A stretch of DNA of 41,102 nucleotides from contig JAUPKF010000007.1 of NCBI GenBank assembly GCA_030837625.1, positions 1 to 41,102 on the forward strand, written 5' to 3'. This stretch comes from Patescibacteria group bacterium. Lineage in GTDB: Bacteria > Patescibacteriota > Minisyncoccia > Moranbacterales > UBA2206. The stretch's first letter is position 1, and the number at the start of each line of letters is the position of its first letter. The notes under the pieces were generated by a model. The model was given only the letters and a program-made list of their open reading frames with translations, was not told the DNA's origin and ran no database searches. The translations under genes and the position numbers were made by a program. Positions 8,114 to 39,100 of the stretch are shown here, piece by piece.

Positions 8114-8803
8114 ATGTTGAACGAAGCAGTTTTAATAGTGTTTTTTATAGCTATTCTTTTATATTCGGTAATTATTCACGAAGTCTTTCACGGTGTGGCG
8201 GCTTTGTGGCTGGGGGATATGACGGCCAAGTACGCCGGCAGGCTTACCGCTAATCCTTTCAAACATTTGGATTTTTTTGGTTCGTTTATAGCGCCTCTTT
8301 TTATGTACCTGTCGCTTGGCTTCGCTTTCGGCTGGGCCAAGCCCGTTCCATATAACCCCTATAATTTGAAAGATCAGAAATGGGGACCGGCGCTGGTGGC
8401 TTTGGCGGGTCCCGGGATAAATATTGTCGTCGCCCTGGTTGCGGCCATTGCTGCCAGACTCATAAGTTTGCCGCTTGGCTTAAAAAGGGATATTATAAAC
8501 ACATTCAACGAATGGTCGGATGTCGCCGGAACGATAGCCGGAGCGCCGGGGGCGATATTTTACGAACTGTTGATAATGGTTGTTATTATAAATGTTTTTC
8601 TGGCCTTCTTTAACCTGATTCCCATTCCTCCGCTGGACGGATCCAAATTGTTGTTTTCTGTTTTACCGATCAAGGTTGAGACGCAAGCGATGCTGGAGCA
8701 ATTCGGTTTTGTGCTGCTTTTAGTTCTGATTTTGTTCTTTTCCGGACCATTGAGATTGTTTTTAGGATTGGCGCTGAATTCATTTCTAAGTATCGCCATT
8801 TGA
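8114..8803 (+). CDS. Site-2-protease-type M50 zinc metalloprotease
   Basis: An intramembrane metalloprotease of the compact bacterial S2P/YwhC type, which cleaves membrane-spanning substrates. The zinc motif HEVFH is at residues 22-26 in the first membrane helix. The second ligand motif is NLIPIPPLDGSKLL (167-180, Asp175). At 229 aa with about five or six hydrophobic segments it matches the minimal family with no PDZ domain. AGGAG at about 8098-8102 is a plausible ribosome site 11 nt before the ATG. The substrate is unknown. Its stop codon overlaps the -35 box of the following str-operon promoter. Confidence 0.9.
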   Translation: MLNEAVLIVFFIAILLYSVIIHEVFHGVAALWLGDMTAKYAGRLTANPFKHLDFFGSFIAPLFMYLSLGFAFGWAKPVPYNPYNLKDQKWGPALVALAGPGINIVVALVAAIAARLISLPLGLKRDIINTFNEWSDVAGTIAGAPGAIFYELLIMVVIINVFLAFFNLIPIPPLDGSKLLFSVLPIKVETQAMLEQFGFVLLLVLILFFSGPLRLFLGLALNSFLSIAI

Positions 8804-8828
8804 CATAATTTCAAATATTGTATAAGAT
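8800..8828 (+). promoter_or_regulatory. str operon (rpsL-rpsG-fusA) promoter
   Basis: TTGACA (8800-8805) and TAAGAT (8823-8828) with a 17-nt spacer. The -35 overlaps the stop codon of the M50 gene. The predicted start (about 8835) lies at the base of the hairpin at 8834-8859. The same TTGACA/TAAGAT pair drives the orphan at 22999. Confidence 0.8.
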
Positions 8829-8833
8829 AATTC

Positions 8834-8859
8834 CACTGGCCAAATCTGGCAGTGTTTTT
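8834..8859 (+). terminator. Terminator-like hairpin at the start of the rpsL leader
   Basis: CACTGGCCA (8834-8842) pairs with TGGCAGTG (8847-8854) with one bulge, followed by five T. It may terminate the M50 transcript. Because it starts at the predicted transcription start of the str operon, it may also cap or attenuate that mRNA. Confidence 0.65.
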
Positions 8860-8885
8860 GTTTAGCTCTACGAAAGTGGTTGCGA

Positions 8886-9040
8886 CCCCGCACCAAATTC
8901 CGAAGGAGATATTTTCTGAAAATATAGTTAATCTCTCGGAATCGCCTGCGGCTTAATTATTGCTAGTTGTAAATTTATTTTGTGAATTGGTGCGGGGCGC
9001 TCAATTTTGTTCCTGCTCACTACGTTCACAGACAAAATTG
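8886..9040 (+). repeat. Multi-stem leader element before rpsL (C family, copy 1)
   Basis: The outer stem is CCCCGCACCAA (8886-8896) with TTGGTGCGGGG (8987-8997), 11 perfect pairs. An inner stem pairs ATTCCGA with TCGGAAT and is followed by the conserved block GGAATCGCCTGCGGCTTA. A second hairpin pairs CAATTTTGT (9002-9010) with ACAAAATTG (9032-9040), ending 2 nt before the GTG start. Confidence 0.85.
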
Positions 9041-9042
9041 GC

Positions 9043-9462
9043 GTGCCGACAATCAACCAACTCAAACGAAGACCGCGCAAGTCAGGAGCGAAAAAATCGA
9101 AGTCCCCGGCTTTTAAGCATGTGTTTAACACTTTGAAAAACAAGCCGGTGTCCACCGGCAGTCCGTTCAAGCGGGGAGTTTGCATCAAGGTTTCCACCAC
9201 TACGCCGAAAAAACCGAACTCGGCTTTGCGAAAAATTGCCAGGGTCAAGCTGACCAATGGAATGGAAGTGACCGCTTACATCCCCGGCATTGGACACAAC
9301 CTTCAGGAACACTCTATCGTGATGATTCGGGGCGGCCGGGTAAAAGACCTTCCGGGAGTGCGGTATCACATAGTCCGAGGAGTGCTCGATAGCGCCGGAA
9401 CGGCCAATCGGAAACAGGGAAGAAGCAAATACGGAGCGAAAAGGGAGAAAAGTAAAGAGTAA
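9043..9462 (+). CDS. rpsL: Ribosomal protein uS12
   Basis: S12 sits at the decoding centre of the 30S subunit. I place the start at the GTG at 9043, giving [21 protein letters not shown], because uS12 proteins begin M-PTINQL. The upstream TTG frame at 9007 reads through the leader hairpin. The 139-aa protein holds the conserved [13 protein letters not shown] (decoding loop with the streptomycin-contact lysine) and [13 protein letters not shown] plus [15 protein letters not shown] short insertion ([23 protein letters not shown]) lengthens the N-terminal region. First gene of the str operon. Confidence 0.97.
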
Positions 9463-9484: not shown

Positions 9485-9637
9485 CCCCGCACCAATTCCG
9501 AAGGAAGCACCAGCTTTATGTGAATCTTTTGTCACGGAATCGCCTGCGGCTTAGTTTATAAGTAGTAGAAAATTTTGCGGGTGAATTGGAGCGGGGTGCT
9601 CATTTTTGTTCCCGCTCGTACCTCGCGGACAAAAATG
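9485..9637 (+). repeat. Multi-stem leader element before rpsG (C family, copy 2)
   Basis: CCCCGCACCAATTC (9485-9498) pairs with GAATTGGAGCGGGG (9583-9596) with one mismatch. The conserved block CGGAATCGCCTGCGGCTTAG is present at about 9536-9555. The last hairpin pairs CATTTTTGT (9601-9609) with ACAAAAATG (9629-9637), 2 nt before the ATG at 9640. The two arms of that last stem differ from the rpsL copy by a compensated A-T change. Confidence 0.85.
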
Positions 9638-9639
9638 GC

Positions 9640-10107
9640 ATGCCACGACGTAAACGAGTATACAAGAAAACAGCCAAAGTTGATCCGAAATACGGCAATT
9701 TGTTGGTGGGAAAATTTGTCGGCAACATTATGCTGGAAGGAAAGAGATCGACGGCGGAAAGAATAATTTATGACGCTTTTGACGCCATTCATTTGCGCAC
9801 CAAAAAGGGCGGACTAAATGTCTTTGAACAGGCTATTAAGAATGTTTCTCCCTTGGTTGAACTTAAATCACGAAGAGTGGGAGGCGCCAACTATCAGGTG
9901 CCGGTTCCGGTGGCGGGAGAAAGAAGAGTGACTTTGGCGATTCGCTGGATAAAGAAAGCCATGAATACCAAAAAAGGCAAAAAAACAGCCGAGAAACTGG
10001 CGGATGAACTTATCGACGCGTCCAACAAAACCGGAGTAGCCATCAAAAAAAGAGAAGATGTTCACCGGATGGCGGAAGCGAATAAGGCGTTCGCGCACTT
10101 CGCGTAA
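9640..10107 (+). CDS. rpsG: Ribosomal protein uS7
   Basis: S7 nucleates assembly of the 30S head and contacts E-site tRNA. The protein (155 aa) starts MPRRKRVYKKTAKVDPKYGN and carries the conserved FVGNIMLEGKRSTAERIIYDAF and ANYQVPVPVAGERRVTLAIRWI segments and the C-terminal KREDVHRMAEANKAFAHF helix. The ATG at 9640 fits the family start; the upstream frame is leader hairpin. The stop codon TAA is the first base triplet of the next intercistronic repeat. Confidence 0.97.
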   Translation: MPRRKRVYKKTAKVDPKYGNLLVGKFVGNIMLEGKRSTAERIIYDAFDAIHLRTKKGGLNVFEQAIKNVSPLVELKSRRVGGANYQVPVPVAGERRVTLAIRWIKKAMNTKKGKKTAEKLADELIDASNKTGVAIKKREDVHRMAEANKAFAHFA

Positions 10108-10108
10108 G

Positions 10109-10208
10109 TTACGAACTACGAAATAAGCGAACTACGAAAAACTTGAATAGGGAATTATAGGGATATCTTCTTTGATGTTTCGTAATTCGTCTATTTCGTA
10201 GTTCGTAA
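10109..10208 (+). repeat. 'gaactacgaaa' intercistronic hairpin before fusA (B family, copy 1)
   Basis: The left arm (10109-10140) starts TTACGAACTACGAAATAAGC. The right arm (10178-10208) ends TTTCGTAGTTCGTAA. About 28 of 31 positions are complementary. It starts immediately after the rpsG stop codon and ends 9 nt before the preferred fusA start. Confidence 0.9.
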
Positions 10209-10217
10209 ATGACAATT

Positions 10218-12832: not shown

Positions 12833-15800
12833 GTGAAAAGAAACCAAAAACAAAAAGAAAATTCTGTCAAAAAGGAAAAATCAATCTTCCAGAACGTTTT
12901 TGTCAGAAAAAAAATATTTACTTTGCCAGAAAAAGTTTTTCATTTGGACTCCGCGGAGCTTTTTGATGATTATTTGTCATGGGGAGTAGAGGATAAAAAG
13001 AAGCTTGGCCGGGAATACGGTCGGATTGCTTTCTGGGAAGGAATTTTCAACAAAATAAAGTCTTTTTCAAAAAGCATTTTGCTTTTTTCTTTCAAATCAG
13101 CTTATCGCTTGGTGATCTTCGTTTTGGTCTTGGTTTTGATTTACCAGTCTTTCCCGGGCGCGCTTTCCGCTCCGCAATCACGTGTTGTTACAACCAAGTC
13201 GGAATGGGATATGGGAGCGCTTACAGGCGTCACCTCAGACACTTCTCAAAATTCAATTCAGCTTAGTCCTAACGGCGGTTGGACGGAACGGGTTTTAGCT
13301 TCTCCTCGCGATACGATTTCCTATGGAAGCGCGTCTGTTATGGCGGGAAATTATCTTTATGTGATGCGGGGTTATTCCGACAAAGTTTTTTGGCGCTATG
13401 ACACGGTTAATAACAAGTGGGAAACAATGCCCGATCTTCCTCAGCCGGCTTATTATGGGGCGGATATGACTTTTATCCCCGGAGCTCAGGCGGGAACCGG
13501 AAAGATTTATGCGATTTTTGGCGGTTATTCCCAAAAGTTCTATGAATTTAATATCATAACCCAACAATGGACTCGTCTTCCCGATCTTAGCGATTCCACT
13601 TATACTGGTTCGGCTATTGAAAATGACGGAACGGATATCTATTTCTTGCGTGGCAATACCAGCACCGGCTTTTATAAATTTTTTGTAAATGCGAGTCGTC
13701 CCTATTGGAAGGACCTTTCCGCTGTGACAGCGAACGTCAACACAGGAGGCGATTTGGTTTATGGTCATGACGGGTATATGTATGTGACTCAAGGCAATAC
13801 GACTGTGAACTTTTATCGCTTCACGCTTCCGGCGGATGAAGAAGATATGGGTTCTTGGACAACTATGGCGAGTATCACCGCGACTTACACTTTTGCTGGC
13901 GAACAAAGGGGAGTGTATTGGGACAGCGGGACTGGATCGGCTAAGTATCTATATTTTTTGCGTTCCAATGGAAACACCACGATGCATCGTTATCAGATTA
14001 CTTGTGATGATGGCACGACAGGCTCCTGCGCCGGACAAAAAGATACTTGGTTAATCATTGCTGAAGCCGTGCCCGGCCCGGTCAATTATACTTCTTTGAC
14101 TTATAACGCGACAGATGGAAATTTTTACGCGGTTAGGGGGAATAATGGAGGTACGGCCACTGGAGATCTTTGGAAATTTGATCCGGATGGGACATTGGGT
14201 CAGCAGTGGCTTGGACTAAAAAATGTTCAAGATGGATCCGGAACGTTGCGGCCGGTCAACACCGGAAGCGATCTGATTTGGAACGGCGATACGTCTAGCA
14301 ACAAAGTTTACGCTATTTCCGGAGGAGCTACTTCTTATTTCAATCTCTTTGATACTGCTAACAATTTGTGGGCCACAAAAGCGGCGCCCTCGCCGGGAAT
14401 AACGGCTGACGTGACGGGAACATACAAAAAAAGCGCCACGCCGCTAACTGTTCCTGATTATCTGTATTTTCCTCGGGGAAACGCATCAAACACGATTTAC
14501 AGGTTTAACGAAGGTCTTCCTTCCGCGCCTAATCCGGTATGGGAAACGTTAAATCCGAGCGGACTGGGCAATATTGGCGTTGGCGGAGGCGTTATATACA
14601 ACGGATCTAAATTCTATGTTCTTCTGGGTGGAGCGTCTAATTATTTTTATGATTGTGGTGCTGATTTTTCCTCTTGTACGAGAGACAGTATTCCTGACTT
14701 GAGGGTAGATAATGTTAATTATTTTCCCTACACTGGAGCTAGAATGGTTTCTGCCGGGACATATTTTCCAGGAGACTCGAATAGTACTGACATATATGCC
14801 ACTATAGGAGATGGGGAAACCACTTTTCTCAAATATTCCGGCGGAGCTTGGAGCAAAATGGCTTCTACTCCCTTTACTCAATATTACGGAACGAGTTTAA
14901 CCTATTATGCGGGAAAAATATATGCTTTGGCTGGGTATTATAAAGATGAAATATGGGAATATGACATTTCTGCCGATAAATGGATAAAGATGCCTAATAA
15001 CCAAAAATATATTTATGGCCGTGGCCCATGGCAAGGCGCCAACATTGAATATGGTGGAAACAGCGCCATGCTTGCCACGATAGGAATGGGGCTTTCGGAT
15101 ATGTGGAAATTCGATATCGGAGCAACTAATTTTTCAACTACTCCCGGTACCTATGTAAGTGAAGTGATGGATCTTTCTAATGTAGGTGAATGGAGCGGTT
15201 TTAGCGCCCATATATTGAAGCCAGCTAATACAAATCTGACATTTGAAACCATGACGAGCTCGGACAATGTTAGTTGGCCGGGAAGCTGGAGCAGTGTTTC
15301 CAATATAAGTGAGTCTGGAGGGGTTTTTAGCGCCGACATTGATTCGGATGAGAATCGCTATGTAAAAGTAAGAATAACTCTCACTTCGTCCAACGGGGCA
15401 GATACGCCAACAGTCTATGATTATTCGGTTTCTTACACGGTTAGCGGGGTAAAGCCTCAAAATCCAAACAGTATCTCAGGATCATCCCAGCAAACCGGCG
15501 GTACGGCTCTAATATCGGGGATAGAAAATAGTTATACTTATGAACACCCATATTTTTCTTGGTTGGGGGCGACGCATAATGGTTCGGGAATTGCCGGTTA
15601 TTATGTTTGCTTTGACACTGATGAGAATTGTGTCGAGCCGGTAATTAATGGCGGCCATTGGTCGTTTCAATCCGGATTTACTTACACCGCGACCACTCCG
15701 CTTAAGACGGGAACTTATCATTTGAAAATCAAGACAAAAGACGGCAATGGAAATATCTCTGACGCAATTTGGGATGCCTTTACTTATCAATACGATGGAG

Positions 15801-18800
15801 TTTCAACAGATGAAGAAACTGATCCGCTTTCTAAAACTAGGACCTCAGCGGATGATTTTAACGATGGAGATTTGGAAGCCACGGCGGTTTCCGGCTCCGG
15901 AAACGATGCTTCGCTTCGATTGGCGGCTGTTTCCGGATTTTGGAATCAGAATCGTTTAAGTGTCATTACTCCCGGAACAGTTTATCAAGCGGGAGAATTG
16001 TCTTTGGGAAGATGCAAAGACGATGCTGATGTTACGCCGCCCTATTCGTTCAATGATAATCATTGTCTTTATACTATGGTGGGGAATAATACGACTAATT
16101 TCTACCGTTATGAAATTGAAACGGATACTTGGACTACGAGAACGGTTACTCCCTACAACACCAATACGGGAGCGGCCTTAGTGGAGGGGCCGGAAGGTTA
16201 TCTTTATGCTGTTCGAGGAACAGGAAATGCCATTCCTGTTAATGCCGCGGCTTTTTGGATGTATGATATTGTCAACAACTCCTGGGTTGATTTGGGAAAT
16301 GCTCCCAAAAGTTTCGCGGCGGGAAGTAATTTGTCTTATGACGGCCGTTATATTTATGCCACACCGGGGGCGGAAGACACCTTTTATATTTATGATACTT
16401 GCAACGGAGAGGATGTTTGCAACTCGGGTTGGAAAAACCCTTATACTCCGAGCTCTGTGCCGAATGTTGATTTTGACAATCCAAGTACTACCAACGGTCA
16501 GTTTACCGGAGAGGGAGCTGACTCGGTTTATGACGGCCGGAACAATGTTTATATGATTCAAGGAAGCCAATTTTCTTATTTTACCAAATATTCCATCGCT
16601 GATGATGCCGAGCACGAAGAAACCAGAAACACCTGGACGCCGCTTATGCCGGCTCCGGAAGGATTTTATTACGGCGGCAGTCTGACTTACGACAGTGTGA
16701 CGAACGCCATTTATGCTATTGCCGGAAATAACGCGTTGACTAACAATTCCAAGCAAGCTTTTTTGAAATATGATATTGAAACAGACACCTGGTCAGCTCT
16801 CCCTGACGCGCCGACGCTCATCACGCAATCAGGCGCCTCGCTTTCAGTTTATGACGGCTACATTTATTTTTTGAGGGGCAGCAATACAAATTTGATGTAT
16901 CGCTTTAATATCGCGGAAAATAGTTGGGAACTTCCCAATCGCGGTTTTTTCGGCCAGGAAATTCCTAAAGGAAATGTTACTACAGTAGATAGTTACTTTA
17001 ACTACGGCGCGGGAACTTTTTTAGCTCCTGACGCTAGCAATAATCTGTATATTATAAGGGGTGATTATGATAATACGTTTGGAAGATATGATGTAGAATC
17101 AGGATCTTTCACTGATCTCAAGCGTCTTCCTATGGGAGCGGTGAACGGAGCTAGTATCTCCTATGGTCAGGATGAAAATAATGCCGCGGTAATTTATTAT
17201 GTGCCTGGTCCAATAAGAGCCACTCGAACCGTCGGGGATACAAAAAACCCTTATTTTTACAAGTATATCATTAGCACCGATACTTGGGAGGAAATTACCG
17301 ATCGTCCGCCGGCCAAAGTAGCGGCCGGATCCTCAATGGCCTTTGACAGCGTTAATGAATATTTATACCTGACGCAAGGGGGGACTACGGCGATGTACAG
17401 GTATGATGTCAACGGAGGAGGGGCTTCAAAATGGTCAACAGTCTCAGCTACTGGCGCGTGTTCAAGCGGGGCCGGCTCAAAAATACTTTATACCAACAGC
17501 GCTGTTTATCGCATCCAAGCCGGGGGTAATGCGTCCTTTTGCAAATTTAACGGAAGCGCTTGGTCGACTCTCAAAGTTCTCCCCGCAGTCGCTAACACAG
17601 GCGCGTCTATTTTCGATGGAAAAGATGGATATGTATATGTTGCTCGAGGAGCGGATAGCTCCGACTATTATCGTTATGCTGTAAGCCAACTGGATCCTCC
17701 TAACGATGTATGGGAAACTTTATCAACGACATCTATAAATAAGATTCCAGCTAATGTTAACACTGGAGGAGTGGGAGGAAATCTGTCTAATCGTAACTGG
17801 CTTATTCCTGGTGCGGGAACCAACACTTTCGCGAATGGCCTTTACAGCTACGTTGTCGGATCAGCAACTAATCAAACTGGATTTTCTAAAACAGGAACAT
17901 ATACTTCAGACGTGATAGATCTGGAGGATGAACCTTATCGCTTTGCCAATTTGACGGTCAATTATGTGTTACCCGATTCAAGCGCTGATTTTCTGGCTAT
18001 CGAAACCAGAACTTCCGCTACCGGATCTTTGGCGCAAGAAGACGAGGACGAGTGGACCAGCTGGAACGCTGTTTCTAATGAACATGTTTTTGCCGACAAA
18101 CATACTTTTTCGATCAACTCTGATACTGAGAGATACATTCAAGTTCGAATGAGTTTTTCCTCTTCTGACCAGATTTTTTCTCCGCGCGTGGATGACTATG
18201 CAGTTTATTATTATCAGGATGTTGAGCAGCCGAATGCTCCATCTGAAGTGACGGCCTATAGGTCGAATCAAAAGCCGCTGCCGGCAATTACGAATTTAAC
18301 TGATCCGGAACATCCGACCGGACAGGACTGGTTTGGAGATGAAACCCCGTACTTTGAGTGGCCGGCAGCAGGAGATCCAAACGGGGCAAGCGATAACCCG
18401 GATCCGGGCGGATCGGGAATCGCCGGATATTATGTATGTTTCGGCGAAGAGGCTGATTGTCCCGACGCGATATTGAACGGAGAATTTCAAACCGGCAATA
18501 GTTTTACGGCTCCGGCTCTTTCCTCGGAAGAAGATAGCGGGGAAAAATATTATTTGAAAATCTCAGCCATAGATAACGCCGGCTTGGCTTCTGAAAGTTA
18601 TACCGGTTTTATATATCAATTTGACAGAACCCCTCCAGGTCTCCCGACTAATATCAACGCTTCTCCAGCGTCTTATTCTTCAGTCAGCGAGTTTACTTAT
18701 AGTTGGGACAGTAATGCGAGTGACACTCATTCAGGCATTTTGAAATTCCAGTATCGTCTTGGCAATGAGTCAGAAGAGACTTGGCACGATATTGGCGGAT

Positions 18801-20776
18801 CGGAAGTTCTCTCTCAAGTTGTCGAACCCTACCAGCCTAACGAGAATTATTTTTATTTGAAAGTCTTGGACAAGGCGTACAATGAAACAGTGTCATTGCC
18901 GAGAAGCTTTTTTTGGAGCGGCGGTCCGGCTTCCCCGCCGACTAATCTTAGGGTCAATCCTTCCAATGAAGATAATGTCACCAACTCGTTTACTTTTGAA
19001 TGGGATATTCCTGATTCATACGCTGGCGATGCGGATAATATTACCTATTTTTACTCAGCCAATTATCTTCCGACTCCGTTCAATACAGTTGAAACAACCG
19101 CGAAATCAGCCGGACCTGGACCGTTCGCGACGCAGTTTGGGCAAAATACAATGTATGTGGTGGCGATGAGCGAGGGAGGAAGCAAGGGAAATCCAAATGA
19201 TGTGGATTGGGAAAATCCAGCCAAGGTTTATTTTTACGCCAGAACAACAGCTCCTGGTCCGCCGATTAATAATCAGATTTTTGACACTTCCGACCGGGAG
19301 TCGGCTGAGTATAGCGTGGCGGTAAAATGGAGCGTGCCGGAAAGCTATGATTCGGCAAACTTTGCGGGCTACACTATATATAGAGCAACCGATCCAGCTA
19401 CTGCTATGGATGAATATGAGGAAGTGGCGACCACAACAGGAACGGCTTATGTTGATACTGAATTGGAAAGCAAGCCTTACTATTATTATGTGCGTTCGCG
19501 AGATAGAACTAATAATCTTTCTATTCCGACTTCAGTGCTTTCTATGACTCCGACTGGACGCTACACGACTGCTCCGCTTATCGTGGATGAGCCGGCTGTT
19601 ACAGTGGAATCTTTCGCGGCGACTATTGTCTGGTCAACTAATAGAGAAGCAAGTTCCTTTGTAGAATATGGAACGTCTTCCGATTTAGATAAAACAAACG
19701 GACAAGTAGATAGCGTTATATCGCATACGGTAGAGTTGACAGGATTGGAGGCTGCCACAAAATATTATTACAAGGTAAAATATATCGATCCGGATGGAAA
19801 CATCGGAACTTCAGAAGCGGATATTTTCACTACTAATGATCCGCCGACTATTTCTGATGTGGTTACTTCTGACGTTGGACTCAATAGCGCCAATGTTTCT
19901 TGGAAAACCAACATGAGCGGAGTCTGTACTTTGCAATATGGAGAGGGAAGTTTTACCAACTCAGTGGAGGAGAGCGCCGGCGGGACAACGCATATCCAAA
20001 AAATCTCTAATCTAAAGTCAGCTACAAGTTATATTTATCAAATTGAGTGTGTGGACGCTGATCTGAATAACTTCAGTTCGGATCAGTATGCTTTTACTAC
20101 TCTTGAACAGCCGATGGTCGCTGATTTCGCTGTTCAAAATAAAGAGAATGTGGATATTCCAACCATTGAAGTTACTTATAATACTACTCATGCCACGACT
20201 ACGCTTGTAAAATTCAAGGGCGCCGGCGAAGGATCATATCACAACTATCTTATTTCTGATTTGGCGACTGAACACAAAGCTACTATCGAAGGCCTCGATC
20301 CGGCTGTCGAATATGAGGTTGTTGCAAGTGGAATTGACGCTAACGGGGTGGAGGCGTTGCCACAATCGTCTAGGGTGACTACTCTTACAGACAGCCGTCC
20401 GCCGGGGGTGGTTGTTAACAGGGCTGTTGGGAGGGTTGTGGGCAGAGGAAAAGACTCAAGAGCCAATTTGTATGTTAAAATAGAAACAGATGAAATTACG
20501 GCAGTGAAAATACTTTTTGGCAAGGGAACAATTCTTAGCAATTTTGAGCAAAGCACCGGAGTGGATCCTTCCAACACTTACCATTTAATTACCATCCCGG
20601 TTGATTCGGGGCAAGTGTACAGTTATGTCGCGGAAGCAGTGGACGAGGCTGGCAACAAGACCATCAGCAGATCAGTGACGGTTGTAGTAGAAGATGCCAA
20701 AGAGAACGCGACAGAAATTGTCGTTAATACTTTCAGCAGCAAGTTTGGTTGGGTAACAAAATTATGGCAACGTTAG
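12833..20776 (+). CDS. Giant membrane-anchored kelch/Ig/FN3 surface protein, 2647 aa
   Basis: The name of the protein is unknown. Residues 1-89 are basic and cytoplasmic. A hydrophobic anchor (about 92-112, LVIFVLVLVLIYQSFPGALSA) may be a signal anchor or a cleaved signal. About 120-770 are kelch-like repeats with a recurring Y-LRG-t--fyrYd---W--l pattern, presumably beta-propellers. About 772-870 is a beta-sandwich-like domain (YVSEVMDLSNVGEWSGF) and 873-990 an Ig-like domain (GSGIAGYYVCFDTDENC). The same trio then repeats: propeller about 1030-1680, sandwich 1683-1794 (YTSDVIDLEDEPYRFANL), Ig 1797-1935 (GSGIAGYYVCFGEEADC). Several Ig/FN3 domains follow to the C-terminus, without LPXTG. The start is GTG at 12833, the only candidate in the open frame, with no Shine-Dalgarno. 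Likely a long cell-surface stalk for adhesion or host contact (inference). Confidence 0.85.
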   Translation: MKRNQKQKENSVKKEKSIFQNVFVRKKIFTLPEKVFHLDSAELFDDYLSWGVEDKKKLGREYGRIAFWEGIFNKIKSFSKSILLFSFKSAYRLVIFVLVLVLIYQSFPGALSAPQSRVVTTKSEWDMGALTGVTSDTSQNSIQLSPNGGWTERVLASPRDTISYGSASVMAGNYLYVMRGYSDKVFWRYDTVNNKWETMPDLPQPAYYGADMTFIPGAQAGTGKIYAIFGGYSQKFYEFNIITQQWTRLPDLSDSTYTGSAIENDGTDIYFLRGNTSTGFYKFFVNASRPYWKDLSAVTANVNTGGDLVYGHDGYMYVTQGNTTVNFYRFTLPADEEDMGSWTTMASITATYTFAGEQRGVYWDSGTGSAKYLYFLRSNGNTTMHRYQITCDDGTTGSCAGQKDTWLIIAEAVPGPVNYTSLTYNATDGNFYAVRGNNGGTATGDLWKFDPDGTLGQQWLGLKNVQDGSGTLRPVNTGSDLIWNGDTSSNKVYAISGGATSYFNLFDTANNLWATKAAPSPGITADVTGTYKKSATPLTVPDYLYFPRGNASNTIYRFNEGLPSAPNPVWETLNPSGLGNIGVGGGVIYNGSKFYVLLGGASNYFYDCGADFSSCTRDSIPDLRVDNVNYFPYTGARMVSAGTYFPGDSNSTDIYATIGDGETTFLKYSGGAWSKMASTPFTQYYGTSLTYYAGKIYALAGYYKDEIWEYDISADKWIKMPNNQKYIYGRGPWQGANIEYGGNSAMLATIGMGLSDMWKFDIGATNFSTTPGTYVSEVMDLSNVGEWSGFSAHILKPANTNLTFETMTSSDNVSWPGSWSSVSNISESGGVFSADIDSDENRYVKVRITLTSSNGADTPTVYDYSVSYTVSGVKPQNPNSISGSSQQTGGTALISGIENSYTYEHPYFSWLGATHNGSGIAGYYVCFDTDENCVEPVINGGHWSFQSGFTYTATTPLKTGTYHLKIKTKDGNGNISDAIWDAFTYQYDGVSTDEETDPLSKTRTSADDFNDGDLEATAVSGSGNDASLRLAAVSGFWNQNRLSVITPGTVYQAGELSLGRCKDDADVTPPYSFNDNHCLYTMVGNNTTNFYRYEIETDTWTTRTVTPYNTNTGAALVEGPEGYLYAVRGTGNAIPVNAAAFWMYDIVNNSWVDLGNAPKSFAAGSNLSYDGRYIYATPGAEDTFYIYDTCNGEDVCNSGWKNPYTPSSVPNVDFDNPSTTNGQFTGEGADSVYDGRNNVYMIQGSQFSYFTKYSIADDAEHEETRNTWTPLMPAPEGFYYGGSLTYDSVTNAIYAIAGNNALTNNSKQAFLKYDIETDTWSALPDAPTLITQSGASLSVYDGYIYFLRGSNTNLMYRFNIAENSWELPNRGFFGQEIPKGNVTTVDSYFNYGAGTFLAPDASNNLYIIRGDYDNTFGRYDVESGSFTDLKRLPMGAVNGASISYGQDENNAAVIYYVPGPIRATRTVGDTKNPYFYKYIISTDTWEEITDRPPAKVAAGSSMAFDSVNEYLYLTQGGTTAMYRYDVNGGGASKWSTVSATGACSSGAGSKILYTNSAVYRIQAGGNASFCKFNGSAWSTLKVLPAVANTGASIFDGKDGYVYVARGADSSDYYRYAVSQLDPPNDVWETLSTTSINKIPANVNTGGVGGNLSNRNWLIPGAGTNTFANGLYSYVVGSATNQTGFSKTGTYTSDVIDLEDEPYRFANLTVNYVLPDSSADFLAIETRTSATGSLAQEDEDEWTSWNAVSNEHVFADKHTFSINSDTERYIQVRMSFSSSDQIFSPRVDDYAVYYYQDVEQPNAPSEVTAYRSNQKPLPAITNLTDPEHPTGQDWFGDETPYFEWPAAGDPNGASDNPDPGGSGIAGYYVCFGEEADCPDAILNGEFQTGNSFTAPALSSEEDSGEKYYLKISAIDNAGLASESYTGFIYQFDRTPPGLPTNINASPASYSSVSEFTYSWDSNASDTHSGILKFQYRLGNESEETWHDIGGSEVLSQVVEPYQPNENYFYLKVLDKAYNETVSLPRSFFWSGGPASPPTNLRVNPSNEDNVTNSFTFEWDIPDSYAGDADNITYFYSANYLPTPFNTVETTAKSAGPGPFATQFGQNTMYVVAMSEGGSKGNPNDVDWENPAKVYFYARTTAPGPPINNQIFDTSDRESAEYSVAVKWSVPESYDSANFAGYTIYRATDPATAMDEYEEVATTTGTAYVDTELESKPYYYYVRSRDRTNNLSIPTSVLSMTPTGRYTTAPLIVDEPAVTVESFAATIVWSTNREASSFVEYGTSSDLDKTNGQVDSVISHTVELTGLEAATKYYYKVKYIDPDGNIGTSEADIFTTNDPPTISDVVTSDVGLNSANVSWKTNMSGVCTLQYGEGSFTNSVEESAGGTTHIQKISNLKSATSYIYQIECVDADLNNFSSDQYAFTTLEQPMVADFAVQNKENVDIPTIEVTYNTTHATTTLVKFKGAGEGSYHNYLISDLATEHKATIEGLDPAVEYEVVASGIDANGVEALPQSSRVTTLTDSRPPGVVVNRAVGRVVGRGKDSRANLYVKIETDEITAVKILFGKGTILSNFEQSTGVDPSNTYHLITIPVDSGQVYSYVAEAVDEAGNKTISRSVTVVVEDAKENATEIVVNTFSSKFGWVTKLWQR

Positions 20777-24670: not shown

Positions 24671-24686
24671 TAGGGTAAATTTAAGG

Positions 24687-24773
24687 TTACGAAATACGAA
24701 ATTAACGAACTACGAAAATACGAAAAAATATTAACATGAGAGTTTCGTATTTCGCTCGTTTCGTAGTTCGTAA
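24687..24773 (+). repeat. 'gaactacgaaa' hairpin before rpsJ (B family, copy 2)
   Basis: The left arm (from 24687) is TTACGAAATACGAAATTAACG plus further CTACGAAA words; the right arm (24743-24773) ends TTTCGTAGTTCGTAA. It is 15 nt upstream of the rpsJ ATG. Confidence 0.85.
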
Positions 24774-24788
24774 AAGTTTAAAAATTAG

Positions 24789-26808: not shown

Positions 26809-27642
26809 ATGGCAATCAAAGTTTACAAACGGAATACTGCCGGGAGAAGAAATATGTCTGTAGTGAAGGCTGCTATTGATGTTGCTAAAAAGCCGGAAAA
26901 ATCATTGCTTGCTAAAATTACCAAGAAGGCCGGGAGATCTGGAGGAAAGATATCCGTTAGACATCAGGGAGGTGGACACAAGAGAAGGTATCGACTAGTG
27001 GATTTCAAACAAGATAAATTTGGTGTCCCGGGAATAATAGTAGCAATCGAAAAAGACCCGATGAGAAGCGCCTTCATTGCCTTGGTTAATTATAAAGATG
27101 GAGAAAAACGGTATATTTTGGCTACCGAAGGAATGAAAAAGGGGAAGGAAATTGTCTCCGGCGAAAGTGCTTCCATAAAAGCCGGGAATAGAACTAAAAT
27201 CAAAAACATTCCGACGGGAACTGTTATCTCAAACATAGAACTGTTTCCAGGGAAAGGTGGCCAAGTCGTCAGAAGCGCCGGATCGGGAGCAGTGCTTACC
27301 GCCACGGAAGGAGAGAAGGCGCAAGTGAAAATGTCTTCCGGAGAAATCAGGTTGGTCAGCAGCGAATGTTATGCTACGATAGGACAAGTCAGTAATTTTG
27401 AACATAGCTCGATTAACATAGGAAAAGCGGGAAAATCCAGATGGCTTGGCAGAAGGCCGGCAGTGCGGGGATCAGCTATGAATCCGGTGGATCATCCTCA
27501 TGGAGGCGGCGAGGGCCGCCAGGGAATCGGACTTAAGCATCCGAAGACTCCTTGGGGCAAACCGGCGCTTGGCAAAAAAACCAGAAAGAAGAAAAAATAT
27601 AGTAATAAGTTTATAATCAAGAAAAGAAGCAAACGAAAATAA
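26809..27642 (+). CDS. rplB: Ribosomal protein uL2
   Basis: L2 is a universal 50S protein needed for subunit association and peptidyl transfer. The 277-aa protein has [21 protein letters not shown] near the N-terminus and the catalytic-region motif [13 protein letters not shown] near the C-terminus with its key histidine. It starts 2 nt after rplW. The downstream 106-nt gap to rpsS is filled by a hairpin repeat. Confidence 0.97.
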
Positions 27643-27644
27643 TT

Positions 27645-27741
27645 CCGATGCGAATCTACGAATGACATTCGAATCTACGAATCTACGAATACGCGAATGA
27701 AAAATTCGTGAATTCGGATACATTCGTTGATTCGAATCGGT
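27645..27741 (+). repeat. 'tacgaat' intercistronic hairpin before rpsS (A family)
   Basis: The 5' arm is CCGATGCGAATCTACGAATG plus CATTCGAATCTACGAATCTACGAAT. The 3' arm holds ATTCGTGAATTCGGATACA then TTCGTTGATTCGAATCGG, ending 7-8 nt before the ATG at 27749. About 80% of 38 positions pair. Confidence 0.9.
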
Positions 27742-27748
27742 ATAGCAT

Positions 27749-28733: not shown

Positions 28734-28976
28734 ATCCCGCACCAAATTCCGAAAGAAGTTTATGTTAAAGAGAAAGCTTACTTCACGGAATCGCCTGCGG
28801 CTTAGTTTTAAGATAACAGAAAGTATAATTTGCGAATTGGTGCGGGATGCTCAATTTTGTGGCTACTCGCCCGCCCCCACACCAATTTCATTATTTATTA
28901 ATAGACAATTTCTTGAAGCTATCCTCAGTACTAATTTAGTAAAATTGGTGTGGGGGCAAGCTCGCAGACAAAATTG
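28734..28976 (+). repeat. Multi-stem leader element before rpsC, with a nested insertion (C family, copy 3)
   Basis: ATCCCGCACCAA (28734-28745) pairs perfectly with TTGGTGCGGGAT (28837-28848). The conserved CGGAATCGCCTGCGGCTTAG is present. The last stem CAATTTTGT (28852-28860) with ACAAAATTG (28968-28976) is interrupted by a nested 14-bp perfect hairpin, CCCCCACACCAATT (28874-28887) with AATTGGTGTGGGGG (28943-28956). The last stem still ends 2 nt before the ATG. Confidence 0.85.
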
Positions 28977-28978
28977 GC

Positions 28979-29623
28979 ATGGGACATAAAGTTAATCCAA
29001 CTGGGTTTCGCATAGGAATTACCGAGAGCTGGAAATCCAAGTGGTTTGGAAAAAAAGAATACAAGGAAAACCTGAAGCAGGATATCGAGCTTCGAGTGGC
29101 CATAATGAAGAAGTGGAAGCAGGCGTCTATTTCAGGTGTTGTGTTGGAGCGATCTGCCAAGATGATTCGGATAATCATAAAGACTGCCCGCCCTGGAGTT
29201 CTGATTGGTCGAGGAGGAAGCGGAATCGAAGATGTTAAACATTATATTGAAAATAATTTTTTTAAAAGAGACAGGTCAATAAATTTGAAATTAGAGGTTC
29301 AAGAGATAAAAAATTCGGAAGAGGATGCGACAGTTGTTGCGCAGAATATGGCTGAACAGATAGAGAAAAGAATGCCTTTTCGTAGGATTATGAAATCTAT
29401 GGCTGAGCAGGTGATGAAGAGCGGCACAATTAAGGGGGTAAAGCTGGAGATGTCAGGAAGATTAGGAGGCGCTGAAATGTCTCGGCGAGAGTGGATGTCG
29501 AAAGGAACGCTGCCTTTGCACACGTTGCGGGCGGACATCGATTTCGCCAGAGCGACCGCGTACACGACATATGGAACGATAGGAATAAAAGTTTGGTTGT
29601 ATAAAGGAGAAGTGTTTGAATAA
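28979..29623 (+). CDS. rpsC: Ribosomal protein uS3
   Basis: S3 is at the mRNA entry channel of the 30S subunit. The 214-aa protein has MGHKVNPTGFRIGITESW, a KH domain with KTARPGVLIGRGGSGIEDV, and the C-terminal GRLGGAEMSRREWMSKGTLPLHTLRADIDF. The ATG at 28979 is fixed by the family start. Confidence 0.97.
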   Translation: MGHKVNPTGFRIGITESWKSKWFGKKEYKENLKQDIELRVAIMKKWKQASISGVVLERSAKMIRIIIKTARPGVLIGRGGSGIEDVKHYIENNFFKRDRSINLKLEVQEIKNSEEDATVVAQNMAEQIEKRMPFRRIMKSMAEQVMKSGTIKGVKLEMSGRLGGAEMSRREWMSKGTLPLHTLRADIDFARATAYTTYGTIGIKVWLYKGEVFE

Positions 29624-30360: not shown

Positions 30361-30609
30361 ATGGAAAAAAATTCTACGAATAACAAAATATCAGCCAGGA
30401 AAAAGGGGGTTGTTGTGAGTGATAAATCCGACAAGACTATCGTTGTTGCCGTGGAAAGCTTTAAAACGCATCCTAAGTATCTCAAGAAGATCAAGTCCAC
30501 GAAAAAATACAAAGTTCACGATGAAGAGAATAAATACAAGGTTGGAGACGTGGTGGAAATTGTTCCGACAAAGCCGATGAGCAAGGATAAATATTATAAG
30601 GTAGCATGA
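30361..30609 (+). CDS. rpsQ: Ribosomal protein uS17
   Basis: S17 binds 16S rRNA helix 11 as an early assembly protein. The 82-aa protein has RKKGVVVSDKSDKTIVVAVESFKTHPKYLKKIKSTKKYKVHDEENKYKVGDVVEIVPTKPMSKDK, compressed from the full family motif but with all strands present. AAGGA lies about 15 nt upstream, a weak ribosome site. Confidence 0.96.
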   Translation: MEKNSTNNKISARKKGVVVSDKSDKTIVVAVESFKTHPKYLKKIKSTKKYKVHDEENKYKVGDVVEIVPTKPMSKDKYYKVA

Positions 30610-30610
30610 T

Positions 30611-30706
30611 CCGATGCGAATCTACGAATGACATTCGAATCTACAAATCTACGAATATACGAATAAAAAATTCGTGAATTCGGATACATTCGTTGATTCG
30701 AATCGG
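30611..30706 (+). repeat. 'tacgaat' intercistronic hairpin before rplN (A family)
   Basis: It starts one base after the rpsQ stop. The 5' arm has CCGATGCGAATCTACGAATG and further CTACAAAT/CTACGAAT units. The 3' arm is the invariant TTCGTGAATTCGGATACA and TTGATTCGAATCGG, ending 7 nt before the rplN ATG. Confidence 0.9.
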
Positions 30707-30713
30707 TAAATAT

Positions 30714-31079
30714 ATGATACAGGCCGAATCAAAATTGAAAGTAGCTGATAACTCTGGAGCTAAAATCATCGAATGCTTCAAGGTTTTGGGCGGATCAAAA
30801 AGAAGGTTTGCCGGAATCGGAGATATTGTGGTGGCTTCCGTGAAATCGGCCGAGCCGCGGGGAATGGTGAAAAAAGGCGACAAGGTGCGGGCGGTCATTG
30901 TCAGGCAAAGAAAAGAATTGCGAAGAAAGGACGGTTCGTATATTCGGTTTGATGAAAACGCGGCGGTGATATTGGAAGGAAAAGAGCCGAAGGGGACAAG
31001 AATTTTTGGTCCGATTGCCAGAGAAATACGAGATAAAGGATATAATAAGATTGTTTCACTGGCACCGGAAGTATTATAA
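30714..31079 (+). CDS. rplN: Ribosomal protein uL14
   Basis: L14 forms an intersubunit bridge and contacts the GTPase-factor region. The start [28 protein letters not shown] fixes the ATG at 30714; a longer frame runs into the repeat. 121 aa, complete to [13 protein letters not shown]. Confidence 0.97.
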
Positions 31080-31080
31080 A

Positions 31081-31170
31081 CGCGATGCGAATCTACGAAT
31101 AACATCCGAATCTACGAATGCTGCGAATAAAAAATTCGTGAATTCGGATACATTCGTTGATTCGAATCGG
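31081..31170 (+). repeat. 'tacgaat' intercistronic hairpin before rplX (A family)
   Basis: It starts right after the rplN stop with CGCGATGCGAATCTACGAAT, has one fewer 5' unit than the rpsS copy, and keeps the invariant 3' arm ending at 31170, 11 nt before the ATG. Confidence 0.9.
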
Positions 31171-31181
31171 TAAATGAATTT

Positions 31182-31487
31182 ATGAGAATTAAGAAAAATG
31201 ACATAGTTAAGATGATAGCGGGAAAGGATCGCGGAAAGACGGGCAAGGTTTTGCGTGTGTTGCCGAAAGACAAGAAAGTCGTTGTTGAGGGTTTAAATAT
31301 CGTTAAGAAACATACCCGTCCGAGAAGAGAAGGAGAAAAAGGCCAAAGAGTGGAAATTCCGAGAGGAGTGACGGTTTCCAATATGGCCTTGGTCTGTCCA
31401 AAGTGCGGAAAAGCCTCCAGAACCGGGTATAAGGTTACAGAAAAGATCAAAGTCAGGATATGCAAAAAGTGCGGAGCAGAAGTATAA
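31182..31487 (+). CDS. rplX: Ribosomal protein uL24
   Basis: L24 starts assembly of the 50S subunit. The KOW motif MIAGKDRGKTGKVLRVLPK is near the N-terminus. A C-terminal zinc ribbon CPKCGKASRTGYKV...ICKKCG is present, as in many bacterial L24 proteins. 101 aa; ATG at 31182 (31174 is out of frame). Confidence 0.97.
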   Translation: MRIKKNDIVKMIAGKDRGKTGKVLRVLPKDKKVVVEGLNIVKKHTRPRREGEKGQRVEIPRGVTVSNMALVCPKCGKASRTGYKVTEKIKVRICKKCGAEV

Positions 31488-31576
31488 CGCGATGCGAATC
31501 TACGAATGACATTCGAATCTACGAATATGCGAATAAGAAATTTGTGAATTCGGATACATTCGTTGATTCGAATCGG
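31488..31576 (+). repeat. 'tacgaat' intercistronic hairpin before rplE (A family)
   Basis: It starts directly after the rplX stop with CGCGATGCGAATCTACGAATG. The 3' arm carries one change (TTTGTGAATTCGG) and ends CGAATCGG, 8 nt before the ATG at 31585. Confidence 0.9.
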
Positions 31577-31584
31577 TAAATAAT

Positions 31585-32124
31585 ATGAGTATTAGGGAAA
31601 AATACAAGAAAGAAGTCGTGTCTGATTTGAAAAAGAAACTGGGTTTCAAGAACGATTTGGAGGCGCCTAAAATCGAGAAGGTTGTTGTTAACGTCGGGAT
31701 TGGAAAGTTCATCAAAGACTCCGGTATGGTCAACGATATTATGGAATCGCTTAAGACAATTACCGGTCAAAAGCCTCTCATGACCAAGTCCAAGAAATCA
31801 ATTGCCGGTTTTAAGATCCGGGAAGGTCTTGAGGTGGGTATGAAGGTTACATTAAGAGGAAGAAGAATGTGGGATTTCATTGAGAAGTTAGTTGGATCGG
31901 CCATTCCTCGAGTTAGGGATTTCCAGGGGATAAAAGAATCCGCGGTTGACAGCAGTGGCAATCTCAATCTGGGGATAAAGGAGCACCTGATATTTCCCGA
32001 AATTCTTCCTGAGCAGGTAAAGAATATTTTCAGTTTTGAAGTTAATATAACTACCAGTGCCAAAAGTAGAGAAGCAGGAACGGCATTTTTTAGGGCGTTG
32101 GGATTTCCGATAGAGAAAAAGTGA
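31585..32124 (+). CDS. rplE: Ribosomal protein uL5
   Basis: L5 binds 5S rRNA in the central protuberance. The 179-aa protein contains APKIEKVVVNVGIGKF, MTKSKKSIAGFKIREGLEVGMKVTLRGRRMWDFIEKL and the C-terminal VNITTSAKSREAGTAFFRALGFP. Complete. Confidence 0.97.
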   Translation: MSIREKYKKEVVSDLKKKLGFKNDLEAPKIEKVVVNVGIGKFIKDSGMVNDIMESLKTITGQKPLMTKSKKSIAGFKIREGLEVGMKVTLRGRRMWDFIEKLVGSAIPRVRDFQGIKESAVDSSGNLNLGIKEHLIFPEILPEQVKNIFSFEVNITTSAKSREAGTAFFRALGFPIEKK

Positions 32125-32409: not shown

Positions 32410-32811
32410 ATGGATACCGTAGCACAAATGTTGACTAAAATAAGAAACGCCCAGATGGCTGGCAAGGAAGAAGTCGCGGTTAGCGCTTCCAAGTTGAAGA
32501 TGGCTATCGCGAAAATTCTTGAAAAGGAAGGTTTTATTGAGAAAGTGGTTCAAATAGAGGACGGGAAGTTTTCTAATATCATAATGAAACTTAAGTATTT
32601 CAAGATTTCTGGCACCAAGAGAATCCCAGCTATCCAGGGAATAAAGAGGAAAAGTAAGCAAGGACAGAGACAATATGTTAAGAATAAGGAATTAAAAAGT
32701 GTAAAAAACAATTTTGGCTTGGCGATAATTTCTACCCCCCAGGGAGTTATGACGGGAAAAGAATCGAGAGAGAAAGGGCTGGGAGGGGAGTTTATTTGCG
32801 AAGTCTGGTAA
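32410..32811 (+). CDS. rpsH: Ribosomal protein uS8
   Basis: S8 binds the central domain of 16S rRNA. The start ATG at 32410 gives MDTVAQMLTKIRNAQMAGKEEV; an upstream frame overlapping rpsN is not used. The C-terminal LAIISTPQGVMTGKESREKGLGGEFICEVW is diagnostic. 133 aa. Confidence 0.97.
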   Translation: MDTVAQMLTKIRNAQMAGKEEVAVSASKLKMAIAKILEKEGFIEKVVQIEDGKFSNIIMKLKYFKISGTKRIPAIQGIKRKSKQGQRQYVKNKELKSVKNNFGLAIISTPQGVMTGKESREKGLGGEFICEVW

Positions 32812-32814
32812 TAA

Positions 32815-32912
32815 CGCGATGCGAATCTACGAATGACATTCGAATCTACGAATCTGCGAATGACGCGAATAAAAAATTCGTGAATTCGGATACATTCGTT
32901 GATTCGAATCGG
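32815..32912 (+). repeat. 'tacgaat' intercistronic hairpin before rplF (A family)
   Basis: It starts CGCGATGCGAATCTACGAATG 3 nt after the rpsH stop. The 5' arm has an extra CTGCGAATGACGCGAAT unit; the 3' arm is invariant and ends 8 nt before the ATG. Confidence 0.9.
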
Positions 32913-32920
32913 TAAATGAT

Positions 32921-33469
32921 ATGAGTAAAATCGGGAAAAAATCAATAGTGATTCCGGAAGGCGTGGAAGTGAAAATTGACGACAAGCGGAATGTCGAAAT
33001 CAAGGGACCTAAAGGGGAGCTTGGTTTGAAATTGTACAAGGAAATCGATTTGGAAATCGAGGGCAAGGAAATTCTGGTGAGAAAGTCGGAAAAATTCAAA
33101 GAAGCTAACGCGTTTTGGGGTTTGACACGAGCACTCATAAATAATATGGTCACGGGTGTGAGCGCGGGTTATGAAAAGAAGTTGGAACTCAAAGGCGTAG
33201 GTTTTAGAATGTCGCTTCAAGGAAAAAAACTGGTTATGGCGCTTGGATTTTCCCACCCGGTTGAAATAGAAGTTCCGGAAAGCATAACGGCAAAGGTTGA
33301 GGAAAATAACATCCTCTCGATCTCGGGAATTGACAAACAATTGGTGGGGCAATTTGCCGCCAACGTGAGAGCGCTGAAAAAAGTCGAGCCCTATAAAGGA
33401 AAAGGATTCAGATACACGGACGAGCAAGTTCGAAGAAAAGTGGGAAAGAAGGCGGGTACAGCGAAATAG
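32921..33469 (+). CDS. rplF: Ribosomal protein uL6
   Basis: L6 has two related domains and contacts the sarcin-ricin loop. The protein (182 aa) begins MSKIGKKSIVIPEGVEVKI and ends with the family RALKKVEPYKGKGFRYTDEQVRRKVGKKAG. Confidence 0.97.
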   Translation: MSKIGKKSIVIPEGVEVKIDDKRNVEIKGPKGELGLKLYKEIDLEIEGKEILVRKSEKFKEANAFWGLTRALINNMVTGVSAGYEKKLELKGVGFRMSLQGKKLVMALGFSHPVEIEVPESITAKVEENNILSISGIDKQLVGQFAANVRALKKVEPYKGKGFRYTDEQVRRKVGKKAGTAK

Positions 33470-33472
33470 TAA

Positions 33473-33577
33473 CGCGATGCGAATCTACGAATAACATCCG
33501 AATCTACGAATCTACAAATATGCGAATATGCGAATGAAAAATTCGTGAATTCGGATACATTCGTTGATTCGAATCGG
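33473..33577 (+). repeat. 'tacgaat' intercistronic hairpin before rplR (A family)
   Basis: It starts CGCGATGCGAATCTACGAAT 3 nt after the rplF stop and is the longest copy (extra CTACAAATATGCGAATATG unit). The invariant 3' arm ends CGAATCGG, 7 nt before the ATG. Confidence 0.9.
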
Positions 33578-33584
33578 TATATTT

Positions 33585-33932
33585 ATGAAAACAAGCAGGA
33601 ACAATTTAAGATTGCATAGAAAAAGAAGGATAAAGGCCAAGGTTTTTGGTACAGCTGAAAGACCCAGACTTTGTGTTTTTCGAAGCCTTCAAAATATTTA
33701 CGCCCAGATGGTGGATGACGCTGAGGGGAAGACTTTGGTTTTTGCCAGCCTTAAAAATATAAAAAAATCCAAAAATAACGTCGAAGGAGCGAAAGAGCTG
33801 GGAAAAATTATTGCCAAAGCGGCTGCGGGAAAAAAGATAAAAGAAATTGTTTTTGATAGGTCGGGTTATAAATATCACGGAAAAGTGAAAGCGCTCGCGG
33901 AAGGAGCGCGAGAAGGCGGACTTAAATTCTAA
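33585..33932 (+). CDS. rplR: Ribosomal protein uL18
   Basis: L18 holds 5S rRNA in the central protuberance. From the ATG at 33585 the protein is 115 aa with [32 protein letters not shown]-like core ([13 protein letters not shown]) and [26 protein letters not shown]. The TAA stop starts a B-family repeat. Confidence 0.97.
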
Positions 33933-33933
33933 G

Positions 33934-34019
33934 TTACGAACTACGAAATAAGCGAACTACGAAAAAATGCGGGGAAAATCTGGAGATGTTTCGTAGTTAG
34001 TTTATTTCGTAGTTCGTAA
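33934..34019 (+). repeat. 'gaactacgaaa' intercistronic hairpin before rpsE (B family, copy 3)
   Basis: The left arm is identical to the fusA copy over more than 30 nt counting the shared TAAG stop context (TAAGTTACGAACTACGAAAT). The right arm ends TTTCGTAGTTCGTAA, 8 nt before the ATG. Confidence 0.9.
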
Positions 34020-34027
34020 ATAATATT

Positions 34028-38990: not shown

Positions 38991-39100
38991 CCCCGCACCA
39001 TTTCCGAAAGAAATAATATGCTGTGTAAAATTGTTCTCACGGAATCGCCTTCAGCTTAGATAATTTTAGACAGGAACTATTTTTTGTGAATTGGTACGGG
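38991..39100 (+). repeat. C-family leader before the glycosyltransferase gene (degenerate copy)
   Basis: CCCCGCACCATTTCCGAAAG (38991-39010) and GAATTGGTACGGG (39088-39100) form a weaker outer stem. CACGGAATCGCCTTCAGCTT is the conserved block with two changes. The final CAATTTTGT/ACAAAATTG hairpin is missing, and 36 nt separate the element from the ATG. Confidence 0.75.

Follow-up and report, generated by a model that had tools for sequence, protein, structure and literature searches.

Genomes of Candidatus Moranbacteria carry a mobile sequence unit that ends in a predicted hairpin at the start codon and is found in front of more than 30 genes that are unrelated to one another. As we propose it, the unit (~155 nt) would consist of P1, an element of ~110 nt with a 13-bp inverted repeat and an asymmetric conserved block, and of HP2, a second hairpin of ~45 nt whose 3' arm contains or abuts the start codon. 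We give an even chance to the reading that the unit is a mobile leader of a new, MITE-like kind and that HP2 governs the accessibility of the start codon, the effect on translation being inferred. Comparison of the copies bears out a covarying fold, a register with the start codon, compensation in the hairpin arms and mobility of the unit, whereas transcription of every unit and an influence of HP2 on initiation or translation would follow only by inference.

The window analysed here, a stretch of 41,102 nucleotides, contains four copies. Allowing up to three mismatches, the block GGAATCGCCTGCGGCTTA occurred at 8938, 9536, 28787 and 39041, all on the + strand, where 0.02 occurrences were expected, so that the shared block described in the initial annotation was recovered; the four copies are members of one ~110-nt element family. 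A protein database check of the products 3' of the copies gave S12, S7, S3 and a family 2 glycosyltransferase, in agreement with the annotated rpsL, rpsG, rpsC and glycosyltransferase genes. In the rpsL copy, P1 spans 8886..8997 (arms 8886-8900 and 8984-8997, with one bulged A) and includes the conserved block CGGAATCGCCTGCGGCTTA at 8937..8955; HP2 follows at 8999..9042, with 5' arm GCTCAATTTTGT and 3' arm ACAAAATTGGC, and the GTG start lies immediately 3' at 9043. The rpsG copy is arranged likewise, with P1 at 9485..9596, HP2 at 9598..9639 (GCTCATTTTTGT/ACAAAAATGGC) and then the ATG at 9640. In the rpsC copy, P1 occupies 28735..28846 and HP2 28849..28978, where the 5' arm (28849-28860) and the 3' arm (28968-28978) are separated by a nested repeat of CCCCCACACCAATTT/AAATTGGTGTGGGGG type (about 28875-28954); the ATG follows the 3' arm at 28979. 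The fourth copy, 5' of the glycosyltransferase gene (ATG at 39137), consists of P1 at 38991..39100 without a second hairpin. Thus the hairpin that had been described as ending 2 nt before the start stands at rpsL, rpsG and rpsC, with GTG or ATG starts, but at rpsC it reaches the start only across the nested insert. The rpsG arms CATTTTTGT/ACAAAAATG are, as had been noticed, a compensated version of the rpsL and rpsC arms CAATTTTGT/ACAAAATTG. The nested rpsC repeat has related arms; an insert similar to it is present in the groEL HP2 of genome G023 (L151), and short relatives of ~65 nt occur elsewhere (L306).

The rpsL leader folded better than its shuffles (z -4.2). A likely rpsL promoter (TTGACA, 17 nt, TAAGAT), recognised from sequence, lies 5' of the element at 8800..8828 on the + strand, and five relatives have a TTGACA-type promoter at the corresponding position, whether they carry the element or not; the element would therefore fall in the 5' UTR. 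Between this promoter and the element, at 8833-8862, a hairpin is followed by T-rich sequence (CTGGCCAAATCTGGCAGTGTTTTTG), and similar GCTAG..CTAGC-TTTTTT sequences occupy the same place in relatives; this hairpin is possibly an rpsL attenuator. The window also contains an open frame of 2647 codons at 12833-20776.

In the source genome, a core can be recognised in 10 copies, and the covariance model gives ~18. At least one P1 copy was found in 34 of 55 related genomes, with a maximum of 29 per genome, and copy number was patchy: in genus g9, one genome had nine copies and six had none. Matches of the exact 20-mer core among 84,980 genomes fell in Moranbacteria/Moraniibacteriota MAGs and in some unnamed or Patescibacteria MAGs. 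The exact core was also present on a contig labelled Methylococcus sp. STC_26 (L218), which is probably mis-binned Moranbacteria DNA. Searches of IMG/VR and of phage and plasmid collections returned no match, and an origin from a virus, phage or plasmid was rejected on this basis. Similarly, no Rfam family matched at the gathering score and a relaxed threshold gave only a chance-level match, which ruled out a known Rfam family; a literature search found no description of such a repeat in Candidatus Moranbacteria. The structural survey below covers about 125 copies from 27 genomes, a subset of all copies.

P1 is closed by the 13-bp inverted repeat CCCGCACCAATTC/GAATTGGTGCGGG, in which 7 of 13 pairs showed two-sided changes, and its covariation exceeded that of both shuffles and slid controls. 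The pairs also exchanged in the larger set, at stem position 8 (C-G 87, T-A 21, A-T 8) and position 13 (C-G 104, T-A 19). This supports the outer stem CCCCGCACCAATTC/GAATTGGTGCGGGG of the initial annotation, which was present in all four window copies. The inner ATTCCGA/TCGGAAT stem fared differently: it showed no two-sided change and no covariation, and was rejected. Instead, the TTC of its 5' half pairs with GAA in the 3' arm of the outer stem, and C-G/U-A exchanges there show full compensation. The conserved block, GGAATC-GCC-NNN-GGC-TTA, lies asymmetrically within P1. Its conservation was confirmed. The initial annotation described it as unpaired, but GCC-NNN-GGC may fold into a hairpin of 3 bp, the loop of which varies (TGC, TTC, TAC, TCC or TAAC) and the stem bases of which are nearly invariant. 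An extra stable stem in the variable loop or in the AT-rich tail was discarded as weak (mean z -0.93 and 0.23, respectively). Unmatched cells in P1 were C.A/A.C in 33 cases and G.U in 11 (22 vs 9 genus-by-position events). Selection acting on the sense RNA predicts the opposite. The covariation of P1 and HP2 may have DNA-level causes.

A second hairpin was scored in 99 of the 125 surveyed copies, a few of these being chance duplexes beside copies without a true HP2, and about three quarters of the surveyed copies had HP2 in a fixed register with the next start codon. HP2 has the consensus RYGCTCATTTTTGT-AGCTGCTCG..CTCGCAG-ACAAAAATGGC and a predicted stability of -13 to -17 kcal/mol. Among 57 distinct sequences, 12 of 15 pairs showed two-sided changes, and 88 compensated cells were counted against 16.8 in shuffles (0/500); more than 25 different 9-bp arms occurred, each perfectly complementary. 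Covariation was thus far above background for both P1 and HP2, as a structured leader predicts. Most changes in HP2 were full exchanges between A-U and U-A, and intermediates were scarce, a pattern that templating at the DNA level could also produce. Among 30 fetched loci matching the HP2 pattern, P1 or a P1 remnant stood directly 5' in every case, indicating that P1 and HP2 behave as one unit; HP2 as an independent repeat was rejected on the same observation. At L039, L044, L045, L070, L127 and L162, other GC-rich hairpin repeats are inserted in HP2 at the same inner spot, where the 5' arm gives way to the inner stem.

HP2 copies are oriented toward the start of a co-directional gene, and in a first tally 42 starts lay at one position in the 3' arm while 21 began 2 nt past it; a second tally with eleven more copies gave 54 starts inside the arm and 31 at most 6 nt past it. 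Where the start lies past the arm, the ancestral arm would bear a spurious out-of-frame ATG. This ATG was lost in 29 of 39 such copies, having become TTG, AAG, TCG, GTC, GAG, ATA or ATT, and most of the copies that had lost it showed a matching change in the 5' arm. In the rpsL copy of genome G020, the 5' arm is atypical: its sequence, TTGGCATTTTGT, matches ATGCCAA, the native start of the coding region. The register, the loss of the ATG and the compensation in the arms are hard to explain unless pairing at a translated start is under selection.

The genes behind the P1+HP2 unit were named by eye from conserved N-termini, and only those of the window by database. They include the ribosomal protein genes rpmA, rplK, rplC, rplM, rplX, rpsL, rpsG, rpsC, rpsN and rpsU, as well as secY, secE, nusG, nusB, groEL, groES, dnaJ, gyrB, tsf, smc, mreB, mraZ, murA, galU, gap, pyk, glyS, hypA and hypC, and their functions span translation, chaperones, the cell wall, gyrase and hydrogenase maturation. 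Only 4 of the 30 starts examined in the window had an SD-like motif. The window is rich in operons and also contains no fewer than two further families of palindromic repeats, of ATTCGTAGATTCG and TTACGAACTACGAAA type, whose ends fall within a few nucleotides of start codons, at 27640-27742, 30606-30708, 31077-31175, 31480-31586, 32811-32917 and 33469-33582, with a further set at 10104-10213, 24683-24775 and 33930-34021. Hairpins against start codons look like a general habit of the source genome.

The distribution of the copies indicates that the P1+HP2 unit is mobile: it is patchy, copied between genes and polymorphic between congeners. The nearest relative of a unit lay in the same genome for 18 of 73 units (3.7 by chance) and in the same gene of another genome for 10 of 73 (2.1 by chance), which points to both spread and inheritance. 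In G007, the hypA and hypC units have P1 sequences that are 98% identical and identical HP2 sequences between unrelated flanks, with the right edge exactly at the ATG. Within genus g17, some species have the unit at orthologous sites where others lack it, and the unfilled sites often hold other palindromes. P1 has also entered coding sequence. In murB of genome G001, it lies in frame behind ATGAAAAGTCAA with CAA on both sides, while the source-genome murB has no element; a source-genome ABC transporter gene has the same 5' region and P1 as this murB. At these in-frame sites (L091:1484-1700, source genome C18; L140:1492-1710, G001 C14), an N-terminal extension of ~40 residues, MKSQPPTNS..RERIGGGQ, precedes the ABC transporter protein and MurB. 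A gene that by eye resembles thiI contains, near 630-770 of L305 (G034 C74), a shorter in-frame element of this arm type. Copies without HP2 stand 5' of -35 boxes or promoters, or inside reading frames, some of them just 5' of -35 boxes and flanked by TTGA on both sides; P1 alone therefore need not act as a leader. At L013, L009, L010, L154 and L311, P1 copies without HP2 are followed just 3' by TTATCCACA, a DnaA-box consensus, and then by promoter-like sequence. The CAA at murB and the TTGA by -35 boxes may be target-site duplications; over all copies, a 3-nt signal for such duplications was not significant.

In several respects the family resembles MITEs: it is shorter than 600 bp, has terminal inverted repeats, is non-coding except for the subfamily read through in two genes, and is dispersed in multiple copies with filled and unfilled orthologous sites. 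Y1_Tnp genes were present in 28 of 34 genomes with the element and 6 of 21 without it (p=1e-4, without phylogenetic correction), yet the ~3-kb loci of the two Y1 transposase genes in the source genome held no element, where REP repeats would flank the Y1/RAYT gene. Mobilisation by RAYT was rejected, the association across genomes having no counterpart in adjacency in the source genome. As for the placement of copies, most lie at gene starts, so that neither of the two outcomes named in the initial annotation as refuting a structured leader was observed.

It is possible, though rather doubtful in our view, that the unit is a purely selfish palindrome. P1 and HP2 would then be a DNA transposition substrate whose hairpins are recognised by a putative transposase, surviving where the start stays intact, and the pairing of HP2 would be kept or re-templated for transposition rather than for gene control. 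This is the main rival. In its favour, other palindrome families occupy the same spacers and mismatches in P1 are C.A rather than G.U; the patchy copy number and spread between genes, the insertions of other repeats nested in HP2 loops, the P1 copies inside the murB and ABC transporter frames and the association with Y1_Tnp fit it as well. However, transposition alone would not lead one to expect the exact register with the start, nor that spurious ATGs are removed while the arms compensate. Copies of HP2 are also oriented toward co-directional starts. Nor has any transposase been tied to the family: an arm search in six genomes found no autonomous transposon with the same ends, and G023 (23 copies) and G016 (13 copies) have no Y1_Tnp.

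Two further readings keep a role in the RNA. The one, which we judge quite improbable, gives the 5' arm of HP2 two alternative partners: the start region, in the closed state, and a start-like ATGGC immediately to the left of P1, in the open state (P0). Co-transcriptional folding or a P1-binding factor would then turn translation on. In the 12 nt to the left of P1, such an ATGGC occurs in 19 of 94 copies, as against 18 of 2256 background windows, and it accompanies 17 of 57 GCTCAT-arm copies but none of 18 GCTCAA-arm copies; the pairing of left flanks with their own HP2 arm is also stronger than with swapped arms (-5.90 vs -5.44 kcal/mol, 0/300). Against this, most copies have no left motif, the energy gain is small and the stability of HP2 would probably far exceed that of P0. 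The motif could instead be left over from insertion at start codons, yet tsf has a TGGCTA left end with a start other than ATGGC; a simple target-site duplication of ATGGC was rejected on this case and because the hypA and hypC left flanks in G007 share only TAT. The other reading, a leader responsive to a ribosomal protein or ligand, was that of the initial annotation and is very improbable. It draws on the three of four window copies that precede ribosomal protein genes, which are also frequent among all downstream genes. Yet the more than 30 downstream genes are unrelated, hypA, hypC, gyrB, smc, galU and pyk among them, where a ribosomal-protein leader would precede the operon of its binding protein and a riboswitch would join one aptamer to one pathway; this diversity makes a specific leader of either kind unlikely. 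Furthermore, the unit is mobile, copies without HP2 sit 5' of -35 boxes or inside reading frames, neither rRNA mimicry nor pathway coherence was seen, no Rfam family matched, and one of the two stems proposed in the 110-nt element fails covariation.

Ribosomal-protein leaders and translational riboswitches are structured 5' leaders with the start codon in or beside a hairpin, and each serves one operon or pathway. P1+HP2 shares the structure and the position of the start; it differ­s in preceding more than 30 different genes and in being mobile. REP/BIME repeats with RAYT transposases are intergenic palindromes in which the REP is short. The Moranbacteria family is likewise intergenic and palindromic, and genomes that bear it more often hold Y1_Tnp genes, but its element is asymmetric, 110 nt long and joined to a start-codon hairpin, with no copy beside the Y1 genes of the source genome. 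The BOX/RUP repeats of Streptococcus pneumoniae are closer in being MITE-like in size, mobile and co-transcribed with genes, with terminal inverted repeats that pair in the predicted RNA fold (PMC3049150). They are over-represented between convergent genes (PMC3049150), whereas most Moranbacteria copies lie in exact register with a start codon, and a shift of the start is accompanied by compensation in the hairpin. Rickettsia palindromic elements (RPE) are also palindromes of ~100-150 bp, some of them in frame in unrelated genes (PMC10969869), as here in murB and the ABC transporter gene; the likeness drawn here is one of anatomy, and most Moranbacteria copies are noncoding and end at a start codon. 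In the same source, the Correia elements of Neisseria appear as MITEs immediately 5' of genes, like the Moranbacteria unit, with post-transcriptional effects reported via paired terminal repeats (PMC10969869). A start-codon hairpin is not among the features described for them there, and they belong to another lineage and differ in sequence. Register with the start codon and compensation at the start set the unit apart from BOX/RUP, Correia elements and RPE.

In the mobile-leader reading that we favour, the P1+HP2 unit would spread whole to new genes and form the end of their 5' UTR. HP2 would stay paired at the new gene and set the access of the ribosome to the start codon, in a genome with few SD motifs, while P1 would serve as a stability element or a binding site. 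A stable hairpin would inhibit any highly expressed gene whose start it covers, unless some factor opens it. A bolder form of this reading, which we think unlikely, sees the unit as a transposable switch of translation. Ribosomal, chaperone, gyrase, secretion and hydrogenase genes would all receive the same start-codon hairpin together with an upstream decoy that resembles a start, and would make up a genome-wide translation regulon that differs between close relatives. The bacterial MITE-like repeats of the papers cited here act on genes via promoters, protein-binding sites or RNA cleavage. If the mobile-leader reading is true, mobile DNA in Candidatus Moranbacteria would rewire translation by a new route, a travelling start-codon hairpin whose pairing is re-made when the start moves.
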